A DNA stretch of 45,563 bases, taken from contig JARLFZ010000020.1 in NCBI GenBank assembly GCA_031296305.1, positions 1 through 45,563 on the forward strand. Direction: 5' to 3'. Position 1 is the first letter of the stretch, and each line of letters starts with the position of its first letter. Below the pieces are notes generated by a model. The model was not told the DNA's origin and searched no databases. It was given only the letters and a program-made list of their open reading frames with translations. The stretch comes from Occallatibacter sp. (GTDB lineage Bacteria > Acidobacteriota > Terriglobia > Terriglobales > Acidobacteriaceae). Below are positions 32,013 to 45,111 of this stretch, piece by piece. The translations under genes and the position numbers were made by a program.

Positions 32013-32117
32013 CCTTCGGTGAGCCGGTTTGAGTTTTGACAGTTCGCCATTTTGCTGGATTTACGTTGTCATTCGGGCCAAGGTGTTTCAGACCCAGCCT
32101 CAATCTTCGTAATCCCG

Positions 32118-32185
32118 CCAAGTCCACTAACTCCGCTAACGGCGCCAACTCTGCTGACTTGCTCTCTCGCTCCCTTAATCCCTGC
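32118..32185. repeat. Degenerate CTAAC / CCCTTAATCC-word repeat
   Basis: TCCACTAACTCCGCTAAC is followed by decayed CCAACTC, TGCTGAC, CTCTCTCG and CCCTTAATCCC words, directly before the peptidase start. The first words recur almost unchanged at 37611-37644 and 24171-24236. Confidence 0.6.
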
Positions 32186-32201
32186 TGTTAGCATTTTTCC
32201 T

Positions 32202-34409
32202 ATGCCACTTTCGCATCGCAGCCTCAGCTGCGCCGCCTTGGCGCTCGTCCTCTGCCCAACCTCCCTCCTGCCCGTTTGCGCCCAGACTTCCACACCGGCG
32301 CCCACCTCAGCCAGCCCCGGCCGAATGCCTTCCAGCCAGCGGCGCGCCATCACCCCCGGCCAGATCTCCGTTTCGCCCGACGGTAAGCGCCTCGCCTGGG
32401 TTGACAGGGGCGTCATTCTCTTCAGCTCCTTCGGCAACCTGGACCAGCCCCAGCGCATTTCCGCCGCCCCTTCGCCTGGCAACTCCTGCACTGAATCCGA
32501 GCCCACCTGGTCGCCCGACTCCGCCGCCCTCGCCTTTCTCTCCGATTGCGCCGATCTCGGCGGGCAATCCGACCTCTATCTCTCGCATCTCGACGGCAAC
32601 CCACCCCGGCGCCTCTCCGATCTCCACGGCTATGTAAACGCGCCTGCCTTCTCGCCCGACGGCAAGCGCATCGCCTTCCTCTATGTCGAAGGCGCCACCC
32701 GTCCTGCCGGGGCCCTCGCCGCCATGGATGCGCCCTCCGGCGTCATCGGTGAAGACGGCATCGAGGTCCAGCGCGTCGCCGCCGTTGCTGCCGCCGCGCC
32801 CCAGCCAGCCGCGCCTGTCTTCCTTACCCCCGCCAACCTTCACGTCTATGAATTCGACTGGTCTCCCGACTCCACGACCCTGGCCTACGTCGCTGCCGAT
32901 CCTCCCGGCGAAAACAACTGGTGGGTAGCGAAAATCTATACGCAAACAGCAGCATCGGATTCCAAACCCTCCGTAATCCTCGCTCCGTCCGATGTCTCTG
33001 GACCCCTCCACGGCCTGCAAGTCGCCCTTCCCCGCTGGTCGCCCGACGGCAAGGCCATTGCCTTCATCGGCGGCCTCATGAGCGATCAGGGCGTCACCGG
33101 CGGCGACGTCTGGGTCATTGACGCAAAGGGGGACGCAAAGGAGAACGCCACCGGCAGCCAACCTCGCAATCTCACCCCCAACCGCCCCGCCTCATCGCAG
33201 TGGATCGTCTGGGGCGATGACGAGCACTTCTTCACCTGCGAACTCGCAGACGGCGTCAACCGTCTCGTCCGTTTCCAACTGCAGGGCGACCGCACCAGCG
33301 CAAGCGTCACTACGAGCTTCGCCGCGCCAGTCTTCTCCTACCCTGGCACGGTCGGCGTCAGCATCTCCGATCACAGTCTCGCCGTCACTGCCGATCGCTC
33401 CCTCTTCGTCTTTCAGGCCAGCACCTTCAACCAGCCTCCGGAGATCTACGCCGCCGGCCCCGCCGCAGCCGCGCTTTCGACGCAAACTGTGGGTACCCCG
33501 CAAACTGTGGGTGCCCCCGGTCCCTCGCATTTGGGGACCGGGGATGCTCCGGACGCATCCCCCGACTCCTCCGGCCTCACCCAGCTTTCTCATCTCAATG
33601 ACGGCCTCAAGCCCACCTGGGGAGATTCCGTCTCGCTCACCTGGACCAACGACAATTTCCACATTCAGGGATGGCTCCTCCTCCCCGCGCACTACGATCC
33701 CAGCAAGAAATACCCGCTCATTGTCGAGGTCCATGGCGGTCCTGCCGCAGATGTCGCTGCCCGCTGGAATGGAGGTGGCGGCGGCTTCAGCGCCACCGGC
33801 TATTCCTCCCTCGGCTACTTCGTCCTCATGCCCAATCCGCGCGGCAGCTTCGGCCAAGGCGAGGCCTTCACCCTCGCCAATCGCAAGGATTTCGGCTACG
33901 GCGACCTCCGCGACATTCTGGCCGGGGTCGACACGGTTCTGGCCAAGTATCCCGTCGACCCCGAACGCGTGGGCATCACCGGCTGGAGCTACGGCGGTTT
34001 CATGACCATGTTCGCCGTCACCCAGACCCATCGCTTCCGGGCCGCGGTGGCCGGGGCCGGCATCTCCGACTGGCTCTCTTATTACGGCGAAAACTCCATC
34101 GACCAGTGGATGATTCCCTACTTCGGCGCCTCGGTATACGACGACCCGCGGGTCTACGCCAAAAGCTCTGCCATCTCCTACATAAAAAACGTCAGCACCC
34201 CCACACTCGCCGTCGTCGGCGACCGCGATGGCGAGTGTCCCGCGCCTCAATCCTTTGAATTCTGGCATGCTCTGCGCGACCTTCACGTCCCCGCGCAGTT
34301 GGTCGTTTACCCCAACGAAGGCCATGGTTTTTCCGACCCCGCCCACCGCCGCGATGTCCAGAAACGCGCAATCGAGTGGTTTGCGAAGTACATGCCCCCC
34401 ACCCCCTGA
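32202..34409 (+). CDS. Secreted S9-family prolyl oligopeptidase/dipeptidyl-peptidase-like serine peptidase
   Basis: The protein has 735 residues from ATG 32202, where the signal peptide (LSCAALALVLCPTSLLPVCAQ) begins; no Shine-Dalgarno sequence is visible. Residues about 45-400 are WD40-like (PD40) propeller repeats such as ISVSPDGKRLAW and PAFSPDGKRIAFL. The alpha/beta-hydrolase domain has nucleophile Ser596 in GWSYGGF, Asp676 in VVGDRDGECP and His708 in NEGHGF, the S9 triad order. It would trim peptides in the periplasm. At residues 431-449, in the linker between propeller and hydrolase, lies an in-frame palindromic element (family A) preceded by an 18-base tandem duplication. Upstream is low-complexity repeat sequence; downstream is the AGTCCCT-type repeat and a MITE-like unit. 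Confidence 0.93.
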   Translation: MPLSHRSLSCAALALVLCPTSLLPVCAQTSTPAPTSASPGRMPSSQRRAITPGQISVSPDGKRLAWVDRGVILFSSFGNLDQPQRISAAPSPGNSCTESEPTWSPDSAALAFLSDCADLGGQSDLYLSHLDGNPPRRLSDLHGYVNAPAFSPDGKRIAFLYVEGATRPAGALAAMDAPSGVIGEDGIEVQRVAAVAAAAPQPAAPVFLTPANLHVYEFDWSPDSTTLAYVAADPPGENNWWVAKIYTQTAASDSKPSVILAPSDVSGPLHGLQVALPRWSPDGKAIAFIGGLMSDQGVTGGDVWVIDAKGDAKENATGSQPRNLTPNRPASSQWIVWGDDEHFFTCELADGVNRLVRFQLQGDRTSASVTTSFAAPVFSYPGTVGVSISDHSLAVTADRSLFVFQASTFNQPPEIYAAGPAAAALSTQTVGTPQTVGAPGPSHLGTGDAPDASPDSSGLTQLSHLNDGLKPTWGDSVSLTWTNDNFHIQGWLLLPAHYDPSKKYPLIVEVHGGPAADVAARWNGGGGGFSATGYSSLGYFVLMPNPRGSFGQGEAFTLANRKDFGYGDLRDILAGVDTVLAKYPVDPERVGITGWSYGGFMTMFAVTQTHRFRAAVAGAGISDWLSYYGENSIDQWMIPYFGASVYDDPRVYAKSSAISYIKNVSTPTLAVVGDRDGECPAPQSFEFWHALRDLHVPAQLVVYPNEGHGFSDPAHRRDVQKRAIEWFAKYMPPTP
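33481..33516 (+). repeat. 18-base tandem duplication inside the S9 peptidase gene
   Basis: CGCAAACTGTGGGTACCC (33481-33498) is repeated as CGCAAACTGTGGGTGCCC (33499-33516) with one difference. It encodes the repeated QTVG motif. The second copy runs straight into the family A palindrome. Confidence 0.85.
33507..33547 (+). repeat. Family A palindromic element inside the S9 peptidase gene
   Basis: GTGGGTGCCCCCGGTCCC-TCGCATTT-GGGGACCGGGGATGC; the arms CCCCGGTCCC/GGGACCGGGG pair perfectly. It is read in frame as VGAPGPSHLGTGDA. Two further copies, in the same reading frame relative to the element, lie in the FAD/Fe-S gene. Confidence 0.85.
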
Positions 34410-34439
34410 CACGCAAATCTGTTGTTTCCGCGGTCCCGC

Positions 34440-34501
34440 AGTCTTGCAGCCTTGCAGTCCCATAGTCCCTTAGCCCCTTGTCCCTTAGTCCCTCAGTCCC
34501 T
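34440..34501. repeat. Degenerate AGTCCCT-word repeat
   Basis: Repeats of CAGTCCC, TAGTCCCT and TTAGCCCCTTG words match the block at 25764-25800. Confidence 0.6.
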
Positions 34502-34576
34502 ATCTTTTGCTCCCCATCCGGCCCCGCGCCAGTCTATTAGCCAGATGATCAGTGTGATCGGAACCGCAGGACATCC

Positions 34577-34738
34577 GGTAGTGGGGCAGTTTCAAAATGT
34601 CGTGAAGGGCACGTGTTCACTCGTGCCGCAAAGCCCCAAGACGTGAAAGGGCACGAGTTCACTCGTGCCGTAAAGGCCGTAAAACGAACGCGGGCTTCAG
34701 CCTCCGAGGGATGGTTTTCTTGAAATTGCCCCACTACC
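34577..34738. mobile_element. MITE-like unit with 19-base terminal inverted repeats
   Basis: GGTAGTGGGGCAGTTTCAA (34577-34595) and its near-perfect inverse (34720-34738, one mismatch) bound 162 bp with no coding capacity. Inside are two direct copies (34601-34633 and 34642-34675) of a 33-base unit. Each holds the hairpin GGCACG[A/T]G-TTCA-CTCGTGCC. No transposase and no clear target-site duplication are seen, so mobility is inferred from structure only. Confidence 0.55.
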
Positions 34739-34980
34739 TGACAATCCGGTTCAATGCCAGACGTAGGCCCACCCTGATACACTTTTTTCTTGGAGTATTC
34801 AGTGTGCGTCTCGCCTCTTCGGCCGCGTGCGGCAGTGTGCCGCCGGGGATCTCGAGCCTGGGTGCGATCCACCTGTTACGGGCCGACCCGGCGCTCGAAG
34901 TGGGAAGGCAATAACTCATTTTTCTTTACGTGTTCTTAGCGACCGTTCCGCGGTTCGACGGCGCGGAGCGGGGAGGATTC

Positions 34981-37506
34981 ATGCGGCGGTTCTTGACGCT
35001 TGTTTGTTTGCTTGGCCTGGCCCTTCCGGCTGGAATTTCCATCTCCGGTTGCGTGCGCAATCCGCAGGGAAACTACTGCAACGGCCTCGGCTACGGCCCG
35101 AAGGACACCGACGTCACTTCCATCATCCTGCAGCCGCAGGTCGCAGGCATCTCGCTGGCCTACGGGCAGACTACCCAGATACAGTCTCCCGCTGCCTTCA
35201 CCTGCAAGCAGAATTCGGCCTCGATTGGTGCCAACTCGGTTAGCTACGGCACCACCAATAATCAACTCGTCGACATCTCTCCCGGCGGCCAAATCTGCGC
35301 CGGCACTTGGAACCGCAACACCGGCGGCGGTATCGCCGACTACACCTACTGCTACTACCCCAATCCTTTGCCATCCACGGGCGGCTTACCTTACTCCGTT
35401 GCCTATATCACCGCCACTGCCTATTCCGTGACCTCGAATCCAGTCGCCGTATACATTCACGCGCCGGTCACCGCCATCAGTCTGGCTACCACGTCGCTTT
35501 CCAGCTCCTCGACGCAGCAATGCTTCTCGCAGAACCAGCAGGCGTCGCTTGACGCCCAGGCCTGCTACGTCAGCAACGGCAATCAGTACGAGTTTTGCGC
35601 TCCGCCTTCTGTATCCCCGGCAAATTATGCTTGCACAGCCGGTCTGGCCCCGGGCGTCACCTCGGTTCCCAATTGCAGTTCATCCATCGGCACGCTCAAT
35701 TTCTCGGTCTCGAACTCCAACGTCGCCAGCATCAGCCCAGGAACCCTCACCAATCCCCAGACCACCATTACCGCGCAGCAGCCCGGCACCACTTCTATCA
35801 CGGCAACCATCGCGCAATCGGCATCGTCGGCCGGCTACTTCTCCACCTGCCCGCCCAAGTCCATCAGCGTCACGTTAGCTGGCGGAGGCACCAAAGGCGT
35901 CGTCACCAGGGGCGGCGTCTCGCAAAACCTCACCGCCTCGGTCCTCGACACGCTTGGCAACCCCATCAATGGCTTGAACATCTCTTACGAATCCACCAAC
36001 CCCGTCGACATCACGGTAAGCAGCGGAGGCGCCATCACCGCCGCTTACCCCGGCGTCGCATCGATCTATGCGGTGTGCGAGCCATCTGCCTGCAATCCGG
36101 CCCCCATCAATGAATTCGGCCTCAATGGCAACGGACTGTCCCTCTCTTCCAATCCCGTTGGGATAACCGTCCCCGGCACGACCAGCGACTTCGTCTGGTT
36201 CGGGGCGCCCGGCCAGTCGCAGTACTTCGCTTCCATAGAACTGCTCACCGGCAATCCCGGCTCCACAGTGCGCCTGCCCTTCGTGCCCAACTCCATGATC
36301 ATGGACCAGAGCGGCAACAGCATCTACTTCGGTTCGCCCCGCGAGTTGATGATCTACTCCACCGCAGGCAACTCCCTCATCAAGCAGGACACCTCGGCAC
36401 CCGGCATCGTGCTCGCCGTCGCGCCCAACAACAATCAGTTGGTCATCAACGATCAGGTCCGCGGGCTGTTCTATCTTTACAACACCTCATCCGGCCCATC
36501 AGCTAGCTATGGCGGAATGGGAGTGGCTGCCGCCTGGACGCCCGATTCCGATACCCTTTACATCGTTGATAACGCCGCGGCCGGGGCCAATCACACCAAC
36601 AGGCTCTACGTCTACAACGTCAACACTGGCTGGAGCACCTACGATCTCACCGCCTCCGGTGGTGCCCAGAACGTGGCCGTTACGGTCCCCGGCATTGGCG
36701 CGTATCTGGCCGGCAATTCTACCGTCGCCCACACTTGGTGCCCCTCCGGCACGGTCGGCAACAATGCCAGCATTCAGTTCTATCCGCAAAGCGATTCCCT
36801 CAATCTGCCGACCAGCGTCTTGGGAGCAACCACCGACGGCGCCCACATGCTCGGCGCTTCGCTCAGCGGCAGCAGCATTACGCTTGGCGACATCGGAGTC
36901 GCCATTTCGGCCACGCCGCTCTGCCCTGAATCCACCACCGGCACGCCGCCCAATCAGGTGGAGACCATGAAGCCCCTCTCCACCAACCCCACGCTCAATG
37001 GCACAGTGAATCTGACCGGCGTCACCAATGCCACCGCCGTCAATCAGGTCGTCACCGGCGCGGCGCCCACCACGGCTTCCACCACCACGGCCGCGCCCAT
37101 CGCCTTCGTCACCTACACCACGCCCAGCACGTCCACCACGGCAGTGCAATTACCCTACTACCTGCCCCAGGCCAGCGGCATCGGCCCCGTGGGCTACGTC
37201 AAGTTTGCCGACGCTGCCTCGGCCACGCCACCTACCGCTCCACTCACCGGCACGTTTTCGCCCGACAACACTATCTTCTTCGTCTCCACCGCCGGCGACA
37301 ACGAAATCCACTTCATCAGCATTCCCACCAACGTCAGCACGTCCGCTCCGCCCACCGATTCGCAGCAGTACAGTCCGAACCTGCCGGCCTGCACGCCGCT
37401 CTCTGCCGGCGGCAACGACGCGGGATGCCTCTATCCCGTCGCCCCCGGAGCCAACACCGTAGTTCCCACAACCGTTATCGCCGTCAAGCCGCGCTCCGTC
37501 ACGTAG
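34981..37506 (+). CDS. Large surface lipoprotein with Ig-like (Big) and propeller-like domains
   Basis: The protein has 841 residues from ATG 34981 (GGGGAGG 5 bases upstream). The lipobox ISGC gives Cys24 as the lipidated residue. Residues about 50-400 are Ser/Thr-rich Ig-like modules of the BIG2 sort (SVSNSNVASISPGTLTNPQT, ISYESTNPVDITVSSGGAIT). Residues about 410-841 look like a propeller of the YVTN/NHL kind (SMIMDQSGNSIYFGS, AVAPNNNQLVINDQ, TFSPDNTIFFVSTAGDNEIH). This architecture is common among acidobacterial cell-surface proteins; a role in adhesion or polymer binding is a guess. A family B hairpin lies 35 bases after the stop and may act as a transcript end, though without a T tract. 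Confidence 0.8.
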   Translation: MRRFLTLVCLLGLALPAGISISGCVRNPQGNYCNGLGYGPKDTDVTSIILQPQVAGISLAYGQTTQIQSPAAFTCKQNSASIGANSVSYGTTNNQLVDISPGGQICAGTWNRNTGGGIADYTYCYYPNPLPSTGGLPYSVAYITATAYSVTSNPVAVYIHAPVTAISLATTSLSSSSTQQCFSQNQQASLDAQACYVSNGNQYEFCAPPSVSPANYACTAGLAPGVTSVPNCSSSIGTLNFSVSNSNVASISPGTLTNPQTTITAQQPGTTSITATIAQSASSAGYFSTCPPKSISVTLAGGGTKGVVTRGGVSQNLTASVLDTLGNPINGLNISYESTNPVDITVSSGGAITAAYPGVASIYAVCEPSACNPAPINEFGLNGNGLSLSSNPVGITVPGTTSDFVWFGAPGQSQYFASIELLTGNPGSTVRLPFVPNSMIMDQSGNSIYFGSPRELMIYSTAGNSLIKQDTSAPGIVLAVAPNNNQLVINDQVRGLFYLYNTSSGPSASYGGMGVAAAWTPDSDTLYIVDNAAAGANHTNRLYVYNVNTGWSTYDLTASGGAQNVAVTVPGIGAYLAGNSTVAHTWCPSGTVGNNASIQFYPQSDSLNLPTSVLGATTDGAHMLGASLSGSSITLGDIGVAISATPLCPESTTGTPPNQVETMKPLSTNPTLNGTVNLTGVTNATAVNQVVTGAAPTTASTTTAAPIAFVTYTTPSTSTTAVQLPYYLPQASGIGPVGYVKFADAASATPPTAPLTGTFSPDNTIFFVSTAGDNEIHFISIPTNVSTSAPPTDSQQYSPNLPACTPLSAGGNDAGCLYPVAPGANTVVPTTVIAVKPRSVT

Positions 37507-37540
37507 TCTCTTCTCGGGCCCCTGAATGCTGCCACCGTGT

Positions 37541-37576
37541 CCCATCCTTTTTCGCGTGTTTGCGGAAAAGGATGGG
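37541..37576. repeat. Palindromic repeat family B, copy 2
   Basis: CCCATCCTTTTTCGC (37541-37555) and GCGGAAAAGGATGGG (37562-37576) form a 15-base stem with one mismatch. It matches 31273-31309 in layout and inner arms. Confidence 0.6.
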
Positions 37577-37610
37577 ACGATGTGCCCCTGTCCAGCGCCG
37601 GAACAAAAAC

Positions 37611-37644
37611 TCCACTAGCCCCGCTAACCCGCTAGCTCCGCTAA
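37611..37644. repeat. Degenerate CTAAC-word repeat
   Basis: TCCACTAGCCCCGCTAAC, then CCGCTAGCTCCGCTAA, end 10 bases before the VOC-RibH start and take the place of a normal ribosome binding site. Confidence 0.6.
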
Positions 37645-37653
37645 AATCAACTC

Positions 37654-38538
37654 ATGATCAAGGGCATTTCGATTCTGCGTCCGGCCGGCAACGCGGCGGC
37701 CTACGAACGGCTGAGCGGCTTTTTCAGGGCTCTCGGCTTTGCCCCCGGCAAAGGATGGCAGGAAGAGAACTCGCGCGGCGCTTCGTTCATGGCCCCGCTC
37801 GGCAATCTCGAATTCGTAGATGGCCACTTTCCCTCCACAGCCGATCTCCTCATCGAAGTCACATCGCTGGACTCCATTCATCAGGTGGCCGAGGCGTGGC
37901 TGCGAGCCCATGCGGTTTCAGACAAGTCCGGCGACGCAGCGGTCAGCCGCCTCTCTCCCATCTCTGAAACTCACTGGAAATCGCGCATCTTCCATGTCGA
38001 GCCCGAACCCGGCTTCCGCTTCAGTTTCTGGGCGTGGTCCGACCCGGTGAAAGGCAAGCCCGTCGCGCTCGAAGGCGATCTCTCTGCCGCGGGAATGAAG
38101 TTCGCCATCATCGTCTCGCGCTGGAACGCCGTGGTCACCGATCGCTTGCTCGAGGGTGCGCTCGATGCGCTCCTGCGCAGCGGCGCTGACCGCAGCGATA
38201 TTCAGGTCATTCGCGTTCCCGGCGCGTGGGAAATTCCCGCCGCGGCGCGCGCCAGTGCCAACACCCGCCGCGTCGACGCCATCGTCACGCTGGGCTGCCT
38301 GTTGCGCGGCGAAACCGCCCACTACGAGGCCATCTATAACGAAGTGGCCCGCGGCATCGGCCAGTCGCAGCAGGAGACGGGCATTCCCCACAGCTTTGGC
38401 GTGCTCACCTGCGAAACTCTGGAGCAGGCACTGAACCGCGCCGGCATCAAGGCCGGCAACAAGGGCTTTGAGGCCGCTGCGGCCGCGATTGAAATGGTGA
38501 GTCTGCACCGCAAGGTGCAGCAAGGCGGTCCCGCTTGA
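37654..38538 (+). CDS. ribH: Fusion: VOC-like domain + 6,7-dimethyl-8-ribityllumazine synthase (RibH)
   Basis: This 294-residue protein is in two parts. Residues 1-130 (MIKGISILRPAGNAAAYERL, FVDGHFPSTADLLIEVTSLD, FRFSFWAWSDPVKGKP) look like a VOC/glyoxalase-fold domain without an obvious metal-ligand set. Residues about 147-290 are a full-length lumazine synthase: FAIIVSRWNAVVTDRLLEGA, VPGAWEIPAAA, TLGCLLRGETAHYE with the catalytic His, SFGVLTCETLEQAL and GNKGFEAAAAAIEM. RibH condenses 5-amino-6-ribitylaminouracil with dihydroxybutanone phosphate in riboflavin synthesis. Usual RibH is only about 155 residues. The one Met in the junction (GMKFAII) could give a separate RibH, but no good ribosome binding site precedes it. 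The stop overlaps the nusB start (TTGA); ribH-nusB is a common gene order. Confidence 0.9.
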   Translation: MIKGISILRPAGNAAAYERLSGFFRALGFAPGKGWQEENSRGASFMAPLGNLEFVDGHFPSTADLLIEVTSLDSIHQVAEAWLRAHAVSDKSGDAAVSRLSPISETHWKSRIFHVEPEPGFRFSFWAWSDPVKGKPVALEGDLSAAGMKFAIIVSRWNAVVTDRLLEGALDALLRSGADRSDIQVIRVPGAWEIPAAARASANTRRVDAIVTLGCLLRGETAHYEAIYNEVARGIGQSQQETGIPHSFGVLTCETLEQALNRAGIKAGNKGFEAAAAAIEMVSLHRKVQQGGPA

Positions 38539-38954
38539 CCAGCCGCCATCGCCGCAAGTCCCGCGAACTTGCCATGCAAATGCTATTCCAGGCTGACGTG
38601 GGTCACCAGACCGGCGACCAGGTGCGCGCCACGTTCTGGATGGCCGGCGATCCCGTCGAGCTCGAAGTCCGGGGATTCGCCGAGGACCTTTTCCGCGTTG
38701 CCCAGGAGCGCCAGGAGGAGATTGACGCGCTGATTGCGAGTCACTCCACGCACTGGCGTGTCGACCGCATGCCCGCCGTCGACCGCAATCTGCTCCGCAT
38801 GGCCGTCGCCGAACTGATCGGCTTCAAGTCCACGCCCTTTCCAGTGGTCATCAATGAGGCGCTCGAAATTGGTCGCCGCTACTGCGCGCCGGAGTCAAGC
38901 AACTTCCTCAACGGTGTGCTCGACTCGATCGCCCGCAGCCTGATCGGGAAGTAG
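38535..38954 (+). CDS. nusB: Transcription antitermination factor NusB
   Basis: This 139-residue protein has the NusB ends RHRRKSRELAMQMLFQAD (residues 4-21), VDRNLLRMAVAEL, PVVINEALEIGRRYCAPESS and FLNGVLDSIAR. NusB with NusE (S10) binds boxA RNA and lets RNA polymerase read through rRNA operons. The start is TTG inside the ribH stop (TTGA), implying translational coupling; AAGGCGG lies upstream. The family C hairpin repeat begins at its stop codon. Confidence 0.95.
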   Translation: MTSRHRRKSRELAMQMLFQADVGHQTGDQVRATFWMAGDPVELEVRGFAEDLFRVAQERQEEIDALIASHSTHWRVDRMPAVDRNLLRMAVAELIGFKSTPFPVVINEALEIGRRYCAPESSNFLNGVLDSIARSLIGK

Positions 38955-39000
38955 CGCCGGTCTCCAGACCGGCTGTCGTGCGGGCGTCCACGCCCGCACA
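38952..39000. repeat. Double-hairpin palindromic repeat family C, copy 1
   Basis: Hairpin 1 is GCCGGTCT-CC-AGACCGGC (38956-38973). Hairpin 2 is GTGCGGGCG-TCCA-CGCCCGCAC (38978-38999). It begins at the nusB stop. The same order recurs at 45049-45090. Confidence 0.8.
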
Positions 39001-39034
39001 GAATCGCTCATCGCTCCCTTGCTCCCTGTCTTCC

Positions 39035-39631
39035 CTACGCCAGCATCGCGCCCATGCGCCGCGCGCGCCGGAGCGTCCGTTCGCTCAATTTGCAATCCGG
39101 CTTTCCCGCCGTCAGCCCGATCCACAACTTGCCCACCGGTTTCGCGCCCAGCATCTCTGCCGCCAGCCGCAGCGCACGCGGCGCTCCCGTCGCCAGTGGA
39201 ATCAGAAATCCCGGCGCGGCCGACGAAGCCAACAGCACTGCCTTGCGCGGCTGCGCCTTGGTGCGCGGCGCAGGCCCATTCTGTCCCCAAGGCCAATAGA
39301 CAAATCCCAGCAGCCGTTCCAGAAACCTGCGGAAAATCGCCGTCACGTTGTAGTAATTCACGGGCGAGGCCAGCACCACCGCATCCGCCGCTTCAATCTC
39401 TCTCAGCATCGGCTCCAGATCGTCTTGCTGCCCGCACCGGACCCGCTCCGTGCCCGGCGTCTGCGTACACGCGCGACAGTTCTTGCAGAATTCAATTTGC
39501 TGCTCCCGCAGATGGAAGGTTCGTGTCTCGGCGCCCCTGGCCCGCGCGCCTTCCAGAACCGCTTCCACGGCGCTCTCCGTTGCTCCGCCCTTGCGGTAAC
39601 TGCCCACCACAGCCACAACGCGTTTACCCAT
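39035..39631 (-). CDS. NADPH-dependent FMN reductase / flavodoxin-fold oxidoreductase
   Basis: The protein has 198 residues from ATG 39631, preceded by GGAGGACGAA; the open frame extends further upstream but without support. The flavodoxin-like fold is seen in VVAVVGSYRKGGATESAVEAVL (FMN phosphate loop) and VVLASPVNYYNVTAIFRRFLER (flavin ring region). A cysteine set FCKNCRACTQTPGTERVRC could hold an Fe-S cluster or be redox-active, as in iron-sulfur flavoproteins. It reduces flavin or quinone-like substrates in the cytoplasm. It diverges from the small lipoprotein gene at 39765. Confidence 0.88.
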   Translation of the reverse strand: MGKRVVAVVGSYRKGGATESAVEAVLEGARARGAETRTFHLREQQIEFCKNCRACTQTPGTERVRCGQQDDLEPMLREIEAADAVVLASPVNYYNVTAIFRRFLERLLGFVYWPWGQNGPAPRTKAQPRKAVLLASSAAPGFLIPLATGAPRALRLAAEMLGAKPVGKLWIGLTAGKPDCKLSERTLRRARRMGAMLA

Positions 39632-39764
39632 TTCGTCCTCCGTCCCTGTTCGCCTGCAGACTAGTCTTTTCTCAATGACCCGCGCCGTGATGCCCCTCAC
39701 GCCGTCCCGCCCTGCAGACGCCCCGCCCCGCAACGCACGCGTCCACCCTGCTATCCTTGATCTT

Positions 39765-40325
39765 GTGATTCTTCGCCATTCCCTCAAGAAAATCTTCGTG
39801 ATGACCGCGCTGCTGGCCATTGTGCTGGCTGCCTGCCGCAAGGAAGAGCAGGAAGTCAAAAAAGTCGCCAAAAAAGCAGAATCGGTCGAGAAGAAGGTTC
39901 AGGCAAACGAAACCGAGCTCGAAAAGGAGCGCGCGGAACTGGAGCAGATTCCTCTGCCCACCAAAAGCCTTTATATCGATATTCACGACCCGGCCGCGTG
40001 GAACAATCCATTTCTTTCGGTCGGCCCCGACACTATCTCGCTCCGCATTCTGCTGCCCGACGCCAATCCCGCCCCGGCAGGGCAGGGAAATATGCTTCGC
40101 CCAGAGGCCGCCCGCCGCCAGCAACTCGAACTGCGGCCCTCCGATCTCGCTCAGGCGGTCGCTGCCATCCCGGCCGGCGCGTGGCCCTACGGCCGCGTGA
40201 TCGCGGTTGCAGAATCGCCTTCCGCCGCGCCCAAAGATCGTCCCAAGGTCCGCCGCAATGTTGAAGCCGCCATCCAGCAGCTCAACGATCTCGGCGTGGT
40301 TGTCGAAGAGTGGCCTTCGCGCTGA
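39765..40325 (+). CDS. Small lipoprotein with coiled coil, function unknown
   Basis: The protein has 186 residues from a GTG at 39765, chosen because it gives a normal lipoprotein signal (LRHSLKKIFVMTALLAIVLAAC, lipobox LAAC with Cys24). Longer in-frame starts from 39675 would bury the signal. Residues 26-60 are Lys/Glu-rich and predicted coiled coil (EVKKVAKKAESVEKKVQANE). The rest has no recognised domain. I do not recognise the family. It is followed after 39 bp by the FAD/Fe-S gene. Confidence 0.7.
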   Translation: MILRHSLKKIFVMTALLAIVLAACRKEEQEVKKVAKKAESVEKKVQANETELEKERAELEQIPLPTKSLYIDIHDPAAWNNPFLSVGPDTISLRILLPDANPAPAGQGNMLRPEAARRQQLELRPSDLAQAVAAIPAGAWPYGRVIAVAESPSAAPKDRPKVRRNVEAAIQQLNDLGVVVEEWPSR

Positions 40326-40364
40326 CGCGCAGCCCCGCGCTACCAAACGCGCTACCATTTCAGC

Positions 40365-43300
40365 GTGAGCAATTCTTCATTTTCCATCCTCTCCAATCCC
40401 GCTCCGCTCGACCATGAGCGTTTCTCGGCGCATCGCGAGCTGGAAAGCCTGCTGAAAAAATCCCTGCGCGGCCCAGATTCCTCCGCTCTCTTCCGCTTCG
40501 CTCTCGGCTCGCGCGCTCTCTACGCCGCCGATTCCTCGAATTATCGCCAGTTGCCCATCGGCGTAGTTTTCCCCCGCGATGCCGCCGATGTCGAGGCCGC
40601 GCTGGCAGCTTGCCGCGCCACGGGTGCTGCCGTTCTGCCCCGCGGCGCCGGCACCAGCCTCGCCGGCCAGTGCGTCAACGTGGCCGTAGTCTTTGACTAT
40701 TCGCGCTACATGAACGCGCTCACCGCCATCGATCCGCAGGCCAAGACAGCGCGCGTCCAACCCGGCATCGTGCTCGACCGCCTTCGCGACGCGGCTGAAC
40801 TCCATCACCTCACCTACGCGCCCGACCCCGCGACGCATTCGCGTTGCACTCTCGGCGGCATCATCGGCAACAACAGTTGCGGCGTCCACGGCCTGCTCGG
40901 CGGCAAAGCTGTCGACAACGTGCAATCGCTCGACATCGTTCTCTACGACGGCACCAGGATGACGGTGGGCGCCACGCCGCCTGCCGAGCTCGAAGCGCTC
41001 ATTCACGCCGGCGGCCGCGTGGGTCAAATCTACGCGGGCCTTGCGCAACTCCGTGACCGCTACGCTACCCTGGTGCGCGAAAAATTCCCCCGCATTCCCC
41101 GCCGCGTCTCCGGCTACAACCTCGACGAGTTGCTGCCCGAGAACAACTTCCACGTCGCCCGCGCGCTGGTGGGTTCCGAGGGCACCTGCGCCAACATCGT
41201 CTCCGCCACGCTGAACCTCACCGCCAGTCCGCCTTTCCGCGTGCTCACCGTGCTCGGTTTCAAAGATGCGTTTCTAGCAGCCGATGCCGTCCCGCTTGCC
41301 CTCGAACACAAGCCCATCGGCCTCGAGGGTTTCGACTTCATGCTCGTCGATTTCATGCGCCGCAAAGGCCTCGCTCTACGCGATCTCGACCGGTTGCCGG
41401 ACGGAGTTGGTTATCTGCTTGTCGAGATGGGCGCGTGGTCCGCGGAGGAAGCGCAGGCCAAGGCCGAATCCGTCGCCTGCGCCGCGCAATCCTGGCCCTC
41501 CCCGCCGGCGGCGCACATTTGCACGCCGGAAGAAGCCGCTTCTGTTTGGCGTGTGCGCGAGTCCGCGCTCGGCGCCATGGTTTTTGTGCCCGGCGAGCCC
41601 GATCGCTTCGAGGGCTGGGAAGACGCCGCAGTTCCGCCTGCGCAGCTCGGCAACTATTTGCGCGCCATCACCACGCTCATGGCCGAGTACGGCTTCCGCA
41701 GCCCGCTCTACGGCCATTACGGCCAGGGCTGCGTGCACACTCGCATCAATTTCGACTTCACTACTCCAAAGGGAATAGAAAAATTCCGCGAGTTCATCGA
41801 TCGCGCCGCAGATGTCGTGCTCTCTTTTGGTGGTTCGCTCTCCGGCGAGCATGGCGACGGCCAATCTCGCGCGGCGCTGCTGCCCAAGATGTTCGGTCCC
41901 GAGCTCATCGAAGCCTTCCGCGAGTTCAAGAGCCTCTGGGATCCCGACAACCGCATGAACCCTGGCAAGCTCTCTGACGCGGTCCGCGTCTACGATCCCA
42001 TCGAGAATCTCCGCCACTCGCCGTCGACCGGCGAAAATCCGGGTGCCCCCGGTCACTCGCACCTGGGGACCGGGGAAACCCACTTCGCCTTCGCAAAAGA
42101 CCAGGGCTCTCTCGCCCGCGCCACCGAACGCTGCGTCGGCGTCGGCTCCTGCCGCAACACCGTCGGCGGCGTCATGTGCCCCAGCTACCGCGCCACCGGC
42201 GAGGAGCAGCACTCCACCCGTGGCCGCGCGCACCTGCTCTGGGAAATGCTCTCCGGCGCACTGCGCGACGAAGGTTTCCAGAGCCATGCCGTTCACGAGG
42301 CCCTCGATCTCTGCCTCAGTTGCAAGGCCTGCAAATCCGAGTGTCCGGTACAAGTCGACATGGCCGCCTACAAGTCCGAGTTTCTCGCCCAGCGCTACAA
42401 AGGCCGCCTGCACCCGCTGCACCACTACATCTTTGGCTTCGCCGACCGCCTCGCCCGCTACGGCTCGCTCGCGCCGGCCCTCACCAACGCCATCCTCACC
42501 GGCCCTCTGAGCAGTCCGCTCATCAAGCGCATCGCCGGAGTCGCGCAAGAGCGGCAACTGCCGCGCCTCGCGCCGAAAACCTTCCAGCAATCGCGCCGTC
42601 CTTCCACAAACCTCGTCCAAAACTCCGTGGGTGCCCCCGGTTCCTCGCCTTTGGGGACCGGGGAAGCGATGACGGGCAGCCTACCGCAATCAGTCCTCTT
42701 ATGGCCCGACACCTGGAACAACTACTACCATCCGCAATCCCTTCAGGCCGCCGAAACCGTCCTCAATCTTGCCGGTTTCCACGTCGAAACCCCTCGCGGC
42801 CACATCTGTTGCGGCCGCCCGCTCTACGATTTCGGCCTGCTTTCCGCCGCCCGTTCCTATCTCGCGCAGGTTCTCCGGCGCATGACTCCGCAAATCGATG
42901 CCGGCCTTCCCTTCATTTTTCTCGAACCCAGTTGCGCCAGCGTCTTCAAGGACGAGCTCCTCGAACTTTTCCCCAGCGATCCCCGCGCCAAACGTCTGAG
43001 CGAACAGGTCTGGCTTCTTGCCGACTTTCTCGCCGCCCGCGCGCCCGAAAGCTTCGTCTCCGGCCGCTTCAAGAACGCACTCGGGGGCGCGCACATTCTT
43101 CTCCACGGCCACTGCCATCACAAGGCGGTCTTCGGCGGCCCGGGCAACGAGATCGCGCTTCTCCGCCAAGCCGGCGCCGCAGTCGAACTTATCCAGGCCG
43201 GTTGCTGCGGCATGGCCGGCCCCTTCGGTTTCGAAGCCGATAAGTTCGAGGTCTCGAAGGCTATCGCCAACCAGGACTTGCTCCCGGCTATTCAATCCGC

Positions 43301-43424
43301 GGGGCCAACCACGATTGTGGTTGCCGACGGCTTCAGTTGCCGCGAGCAGCTCGACCAACTAGCTCACGTCAAAGCGCTCCACTTTGCCGAGGTTCTGACG
43401 CACTCCTGCCGCTGCGGTGGGTGA
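40365..43424 (+). CDS. Fused FAD-binding / Fe-S / CCG-domain D-2-hydroxyacid dehydrogenase-like protein
   Basis: This 1019-residue protein starts at GTG. The FAD_binding_4 domain is seen in VLPRGAGTSLAGQCVN and LGGIIGNNSCGVHG, and FAD-oxidase C-terminal parts in RSPLYGHYGQGCVHTRINFD and SLSGEHGDGQSR. Next come ferredoxin-type cysteines (CVGVGSC-x8-CPSYRATG and CLSCKACKSECPVQVDM) and two CCG-type segments (GHICCGRPLYDFGLL, GHCHHKAVFGG, GCCGMAGPFGFE). The order equals GlcD plus GlcF in one chain, as in YdiJ-like D-2-hydroxyglutarate dehydrogenases and Dld-like lactate dehydrogenases. It oxidises a D-2-hydroxyacid and feeds the quinone or cytochrome pool. Two in-frame family A palindromic elements are inserted near residues 559-571 and 755-768, both in interdomain linkers. 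Confidence 0.93.
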   Translation: MSNSSFSILSNPAPLDHERFSAHRELESLLKKSLRGPDSSALFRFALGSRALYAADSSNYRQLPIGVVFPRDAADVEAALAACRATGAAVLPRGAGTSLAGQCVNVAVVFDYSRYMNALTAIDPQAKTARVQPGIVLDRLRDAAELHHLTYAPDPATHSRCTLGGIIGNNSCGVHGLLGGKAVDNVQSLDIVLYDGTRMTVGATPPAELEALIHAGGRVGQIYAGLAQLRDRYATLVREKFPRIPRRVSGYNLDELLPENNFHVARALVGSEGTCANIVSATLNLTASPPFRVLTVLGFKDAFLAADAVPLALEHKPIGLEGFDFMLVDFMRRKGLALRDLDRLPDGVGYLLVEMGAWSAEEAQAKAESVACAAQSWPSPPAAHICTPEEAASVWRVRESALGAMVFVPGEPDRFEGWEDAAVPPAQLGNYLRAITTLMAEYGFRSPLYGHYGQGCVHTRINFDFTTPKGIEKFREFIDRAADVVLSFGGSLSGEHGDGQSRAALLPKMFGPELIEAFREFKSLWDPDNRMNPGKLSDAVRVYDPIENLRHSPSTGENPGAPGHSHLGTGETHFAFAKDQGSLARATERCVGVGSCRNTVGGVMCPSYRATGEEQHSTRGRAHLLWEMLSGALRDEGFQSHAVHEALDLCLSCKACKSECPVQVDMAAYKSEFLAQRYKGRLHPLHHYIFGFADRLARYGSLAPALTNAILTGPLSSPLIKRIAGVAQERQLPRLAPKTFQQSRRPSTNLVQNSVGAPGSSPLGTGEAMTGSLPQSVLLWPDTWNNYYHPQSLQAAETVLNLAGFHVETPRGHICCGRPLYDFGLLSAARSYLAQVLRRMTPQIDAGLPFIFLEPSCASVFKDELLELFPSDPRAKRLSEQVWLLADFLAARAPESFVSGRFKNALGGAHILLHGHCHHKAVFGGPGNEIALLRQAGAAVELIQAGCCGMAGPFGFEADKFEVSKAIANQDLLPAIQSAGPTTIVVADGFSCREQLDQLAHVKALHFAEVLTHSCRCGG
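42041..42076 (+). repeat. Family A palindromic element in FAD/Fe-S gene, copy 1
   Basis: GGGTGCCCCCGGTCAC-TCGCACCT-GGGGACCGGGGA. Encodes GAPGHSHLGTGE in the linker between the FAD-oxidase and ferredoxin parts. Confidence 0.85.
42627..42667 (+). repeat. Family A palindromic element in FAD/Fe-S gene, copy 2
   Basis: GTGGGTGCCCCCGGTTCC-TCGCCTTT-GGGGACCGGGGAAGC. Encodes VGAPGSSPLGTGEA between the Fe-S helical part and the CCG segments. Confidence 0.85.
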
Positions 43425-45040: not shown

Positions 45041-45048
45041 TTTCGAGT

Positions 45049-45090
45049 ACCGCCGGTCTCCTGACCGGCTGTAGTGCGGGCGTCCACGCC
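45049..45090. repeat. Double-hairpin palindromic repeat family C, copy 2
   Basis: Hairpin 1 is GCCGGTC-TCCT-GACCGGC (45052-45069). It is followed by GTGCGGGCG-TCCA-CGCCC, the same order and spacing as 38956-38995. Like copy 1 it lies directly after a plus-strand stop codon. Confidence 0.8.
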
Positions 45091-45111
45091 CTCTCAGCAG
45101 AGAAACTCAGC

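Follow-up and report, generated by a model that had tools for sequence, protein, structure and literature searches.

How has one palindromic DNA sequence come to lie, in a single reading frame, at three interdomain linkers of two unrelated proteins? The question is raised by a 45,563-nucleotide stretch of an Occallatibacter sp. genome (contig JARLFZ010000020.1), hereafter the window. REPs are usually described as extragenic. Nevertheless, based on the analyses presented here, we consider it highly probable that the palindromes in the window are copies of a genus-wide REP family linked to a RAYT-type transposase, likely spread in trans and probably kept because the peptide that they encode is tolerated in linkers.

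Palindrome copies in the window

The three copies share a block of 35 bases, GGGTGCCCCCGGT-N11-GGGGACCGGGG, which in each case lies inside the range given in the original prediction. Copy 1 (33509..33543, plus strand) is located in frame within the gene of a 785-aa S9-family peptidase (32052..34409, plus strand; Pfam/NCBIfam), where it encodes GAPGPSHLGTG at the propeller/hydrolase junction, with the PD40 propeller matches on one side and Peptidase_S9 (585-781; Pfam) on the other. Copies 2 and 3 are both in frame within the gene of a 1019-aa FAD-linked oxidase with 4Fe-4S and CCG domains (40365..43424, plus strand), referred to here as the FAD/Fe-S protein. Copy 2 (42041..42075, plus strand) encodes GAPGHSHLGTG at the FAD/ferredoxin junction, between FAD-oxidase_C, which ends at residue 536, and Fer4, which starts at residue 588 (Pfam). 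Copy 3 (42629..42663, plus strand) encodes GAPGSSPLGTG at the ferredoxin/CCG junction, between Fer4 and CCG (787-821; Pfam). All three copies thus translate to GAPGxSxLGTG[D/E], and the Pfam domain borders agree with an interdomain placement in every case, as had been proposed from the sequence. An AlphaFold model of the FAD/Fe-S protein (19 sequences) had a mean pLDDT of 50.7, too poor for placing the peptides. An 18-base tandem duplication (33481..33516, plus strand) overlaps the left edge of copy 1 and adds QTVGTP to the peptidase; in our alignment, it is absent from the orthologue of the sister genome G019.

The copies had also been predicted to fold into a hairpin, which holds for the repeat family and, taken copy by copy, for copy 1 but not for copies 2 and 3. 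Folded as single-stranded DNA, copy 1 reached a z-score of -3.96 and was matched by none of 200 shuffles; copies 2 and 3, each with one stem substitution, had z-scores of -0.91 and -0.65, with 35/200 and 51/200 shuffles as good, respectively. When stems were scored in a simple way, windows drawn at random from the respective gene equalled copies 1, 2 and 3 in 6/35, 1/35 and 8/32 draws. The hairpins in the window are single, not paired; inverted pairs occur around transposase genes in sister genomes. A known structured RNA was ruled out as the identity of the element, with no Rfam match in 33001-43001.

The window contains a second palindromic repeat, at 38950-39001 and 45046-45097, whose first copy reads AGTAGCGCCGGTCTCCAGACCGGCTGT.. 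and carries GTAG near its foot, suggesting a more canonical REP-like family. This second repeat also adjoins copies of the main repeat at four loci (L001, L003, L030 and L041).

The repeat family and an associated transposase

In the window's own genome (G000; 4.1 Mb in 171 contigs, 84% complete), exact-pattern searches returned 23-33 copies, and a consensus search allowing up to three mismatches returned 42; the corresponding controls (the reversed pattern, for the exact search) returned none. With up to four mismatches, 43 distinct copies were extracted, a minimum, as two more were met incidentally. The further copies that the original prediction had expected in the genome are there, at least 43 in all. 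The 5′ tetranucleotide GGTG is present in 43/43 copies and is followed by A in 39/43, and variation is found mostly at loop positions 20-23, a uniformity that was in part imposed by the search pattern. Some copies belong to a composite repeat, in which a tail of about 45 bases, with its end near TTTTGGAATCGCTC, lies at a fixed distance after the REP; this arrangement was seen in L005 (both copies), L012, L015, L017, L368 and L370. All six genome-wide matches to this tail (up to three mismatches) adjoin a REP, as does a seventh, weaker match.

Outside G000, the family is concentrated in the genus. At least one exact copy was present in 53 of 149 genomes, comprising 51 of 80 same-genus genomes (G000 included; 0-45 copies each) and 2 of 69 others. 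Among the matches listed in named genomes, the contigs bear acidobacterial titles, nearly all at family or phylum rank, and include Occallatibacter savannae AB23, in agreement with the acidobacterial host that had been suspected from the sequence. One contig carrying the repeat is filed as Geothrix sp. (L139), for which mis-binning or misnaming seems likely.

The original prediction had also proposed looking for a RAYT or other transposase. Since Y1_Tnp genes are present in 77 of 78 congeneric genomes, their presence alone is uninformative; most Y1_Tnp loci are unrelated to the main hairpin, which was found at none of the 31 loci examined first. In the sister genome G009, we identified a Y1_Tnp protein of 191 aa that contains the motifs HVH and YIHRNP and whose gene is flanked by inverted copies of the hairpin, the downstream REP copy forming the C-terminus of the protein. 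Used as a query, this transposase had matches in 53 of 79 genomes, from which 30 loci were returned. At 22 of these loci, the two ends carry inverted hairpins that match with a score of at least 22; the remaining eight scored 7-19 on a scale that carries no shuffled control. Seven of the 22 bracketed loci, in seven sister species, carry the hairpin of the window (type A); in one of the seven (G069), the transposase gene has an internal stop. The RAYT-type transposase thus exists, bracketed by the hairpin, in sister genomes.

The type of hairpin follows the phylogeny of the transposase. In a tree of the 20 loci whose hairpins could be typed as A, B or C (the ten loci lacking a typable hairpin were excluded), the seven type A transposases form one clade (clade A; support 100/100), and the type C transposases form another (98/99). 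The three hairpin types require two changes on this tree, which is the minimum, and none of 200 label shuffles gave a value as low. Types B and C are compensated relatives of type A, with stems such as CCCAGGTCTC/GAGACCTGGG and CCAGGTGCC/GGGCACCTGG, respectively, and the foot of type C is mostly GCTG. Among 14 hairpins hand-picked from the inverted-pair set, 105 of 105 stem cells pair, and nine are changed on both sides (shuffled mean 2.6; as high in 0/500). Six of the eight pairs are invariant, the compensated changes falling at the other two, and two of the five covariation measures were not above shuffles (351/500 and 359/500 as high). Based on the inverted pairs that bracket clade-A Y1 HUH genes and on the agreement between hairpin type and transposase clade, we assign the repeat to a RAYT-associated REP family.

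No clade-A transposase was found in G000 itself at E<=1e-20, in an assembly of the completeness given above. Its sole Y1_Tnp gene belongs to another, distant clade and lies at L044 (G000:C153:4600-7944) within an array of other hairpins, e.g., GGTAGCCCCAGTC..GACTGGGG and AGCCCGCTTTAGCGGGC; its distant clade and the different hairpins around it led us to reject this gene as the source of the repeat. The single-contig, 100% complete genome G055 likewise has no clade-A match (E<=1e-20) and holds 19 exact copies, so the number of copies does not depend on an enzyme now present; its contig (G055:C1) can be described as an orphan REP population. In a comparison of 79 genomes, which excludes G079 (39 copies; absent from the transposase search), those with a bracketed clade-A gene were richer in copies (median 5 vs 1, p 0.0014), an excess to which the copies bracketing that gene contribute. 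The repeats may persist after loss of their transposase, or may be served by a different RAYT.

Intragenic copies, reading frame and shared linkers

Eleven of the 43 copies in G000 are coding, ten of them recognised by codon usage on both flanks after the removal of two antisense shadows; the eleventh, in uracil-DNA glycosylase, was seen separately. Besides the two proteins of the window, the hosts are UvrA, MnmE, MnmG, RimM, SMC, Era, uracil-DNA glycosylase and a membrane protein. Pfam or NCBIfam models identify the host proteins of ten of the eleven copies; the membrane protein matched no model. MnmG (L019:2-1957) carries a second foreign-looking block in its C-terminal part, GHDFSRANQGPQFSGASAPEG, possibly from another repeat family.

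All nine plus-orientation coding copies are read in the GAPG.. frame, and both minus-orientation copies are read as SPVPK.EGP.AP. The consensus hairpin is stop-free in all six frames, so this bias is not forced by stops; with the first plus copy fixing the frame, the chance that the other eight would agree is (1/3)^8, or about 1.5e-4. A further set of 190 distinct copies, which includes the three of the window, had usable flanks in 162 cases, and 17 of these appeared to be coding. After removal of the window's three, the same frames were used by 11 of 12 plus and 2 of 2 minus copies in other genomes. Some of these sites are homologous: the copies of L121, L307 and L317 in an S9 loop are perhaps one insertion, and those of L081, L121 (second site) and L280 occupy sites that are also filled in G000. 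When homologous sites were merged or removed, seven of eight plus copies remained in the GAPG frame (binomial p 0.0026). The natural reading of this bias is that insertions occurred in all phases and that those read as a small flexible peptide survived, which would imply selection on the protein; insertion biased towards one codon phase could also produce it.

The original prediction held that orthologues lack the peptide, which proved nearly right. For each host, 30 loci were returned, own locus included, from 64 (FAD/Fe-S), 66 (S9) and 78 (UvrA) matched genomes. Only one of the 29 S9 orthologues, that of G019, has the insertion, with the identical peptide at the identical junction, and the other 28 are without it. 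In G019, G025 and G038, the S9 gene has copies in a different loop, within the propeller. Among the 29 FAD/Fe-S orthologues, site 1 contains a compensated variant of the hairpin in G013, an apparent split copy in G006 and a different, long palindrome in G019; site 2 contains a decayed copy in G025, a type-B-like hairpin in G028 and a third hairpin in G004 and G054.

The UvrA linker is the clearest case. It is 29 aa long in G000 vs 16-18 aa in the four shortest rows (L351, L355, L357 and L363), i.e., about 12 aa or 36 bases longer; the length pattern fitted 16 of 30 rows (14 gave none), and a separate alignment took in all 30. In this alignment, the main hairpin is present in G000 and G001 at differing offsets, a reversed type-B-like hairpin is present in L356, and a CCATCC..GGGTGG palindrome is clear in L338, L342 and L349 and decayed in others. 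This one linker therefore contains at least three hairpin types within a single genus. None of 33 windows drawn at random from the gene equalled the stem in the G000 linker. An exact empty site was not found among the aligned orthologues, in which the linkers are hypervariable.

Tentatively, these observations could be taken further: the UvrA, FAD/Fe-S and S9 linkers might be landing pads entered independently by different REP types across species, RAYT-driven hairpins might be a recurrent source of ready-made linkers, and selection at the protein level might fix the one flexible Gly-Pro-Ser frame. We regard this extension as possible, although rather less likely than not to be correct as a whole.

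Known systems and the origin of the copies

The published systems compared here are taken from excerpts of the papers cited. As in REP/RAYT systems (TnpA_REP, REPtrons), the repeat forms a short hairpin whose stem adjoins a conserved tetranucleotide, it exists in many dispersed copies, inverted copies surround a Y1 HUH transposase gene, and the hairpin type tracks the transposase clade. Inverted REPs flanking RAYT genes are described as the rule (PMC2817692). Unlike in those systems, the foot here is G[G/C]TG in place of GT[AG]G, the host belongs to the Acidobacteriaceae, and 11 of 43 copies are intragenic. The E. coli and Stenotrophomonas enzymes cleave single-stranded REPs in a GT[AG]G-dependent manner, and the Marinomonas enzyme tolerates changes (PMC8266576). 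Koribacter versatilis, an acidobacterium, has been reported to have tyrosine-transposase genes with terminal repeats (PMC3733652).

In-frame intragenic REPs have already been published: GTAG and CGTC REPs were described in housekeeping genes such as uvrA, with flexible linkers or loops proposed as tolerated sites, and recB of two Xanthomonas species was noted to hold different REPs at about one site (PMC3733652). The copies described here are likewise in frame in housekeeping genes and at linkers; they differ from that account in their tag and phylum, in the one dominant frame, and in a UvrA linker with at least three hairpin types across 30 congeneric rows. What is less expected here is the occupation of identical linkers by different hairpin types across species and the single frame of 9/9 plus coding copies. 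RAYT subclass 2.4 genes contain in-frame REPs within the transposase gene itself (PMC6006769); the REP at the end of the G009 transposase is comparable as a REP in a coding frame, whereas the other host genes here are unrelated ones. The likeness to Rickettsia palindromic elements that had been suggested stands as an analogy of outcome, since palindromes are found in frame in unrelated proteins in both cases, but not as one of kind. According to the excerpt, those elements carry a CGTC tag and are not associated with a transposase (PMC3733652), whereas here the foot is GGTG, the CGTC tag is missing and a RAYT is associated; a Rickettsia-type element was rejected on these grounds. The titles and abstract openings covered by the literature searches contained no account of the main hairpin or of intragenic REPs in Acidobacteriaceae.

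The original idea of a self-spreading repeat tolerated in proteins agrees with the dispersed palindromic family, the in-frame coding copies and the RAYT association in sister genomes. A Y1 HUH transposase of the RAYT type likely spread the hairpins in trans, acting on their single-stranded form, and an ancestral cognate transposase would once have been present in the lineage of G000. An insert of probably about 36 bases would keep the frame and be read as a small flexible Gly-Pro-Ser peptide; linkers would tolerate the added length, so that such copies probably persist, and selection would remove copies that are read in another frame or lie within a folded domain, giving the frame bias. The presence of 23-33 exact copies in G000 and of 19 in G055, both without a clade-A gene, and the occupation of identical linkers by several palindrome types would also fit a repeat that spreads by recombination or template switching between palindromes, with the transposase genes bracketed by accident. 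Inverted hairpins at both ends of 22 of 30 transposase loci and the agreement between hairpin type and transposase clade argue against this alternative, which we consider unlikely.

The remaining explanations concern why intragenic copies are kept. A role of the nucleic acid that goes beyond tolerance, as an mRNA hairpin slowing translation at domain borders or as a protein-binding DNA site, would be consistent with the interdomain insertions in both proteins of the window, and PMC3733652 and PMC6006769 consider roles of REPs at the DNA and RNA levels. This role appears very improbable to us: 28 of 30 S9 rows are without the repeat at the site, and the stem is weakened in two of the three copies of the window. 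Even less credible is an origin at the protein level, in which the peptide arose within the proteins as a functional linker motif and its common DNA reflects convergence or linker exchange. That all three copies of the window are at linkers and in a single frame would be expected of such a motif, but no coding frame was found for 32 of the 43 copies, conservation at the DNA level extends to both arms of the hairpin, opposite-orientation copies encode another peptide, and copies exist outside genes and around transposase genes. A convergent linker peptide was rejected, as identical DNA also occurs outside genes.

The preferred reading, that of RAYT-linked REP copies tolerated in linkers, gives a transposase-linked REP family that can be traced across some 80 genomes of the genus to in-frame positions in essential proteins, at linkers also used by other hairpins. 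Mobile DNA as a supplier of protein linkers thereby becomes a question open to alignment, proteomics and simple complementation.
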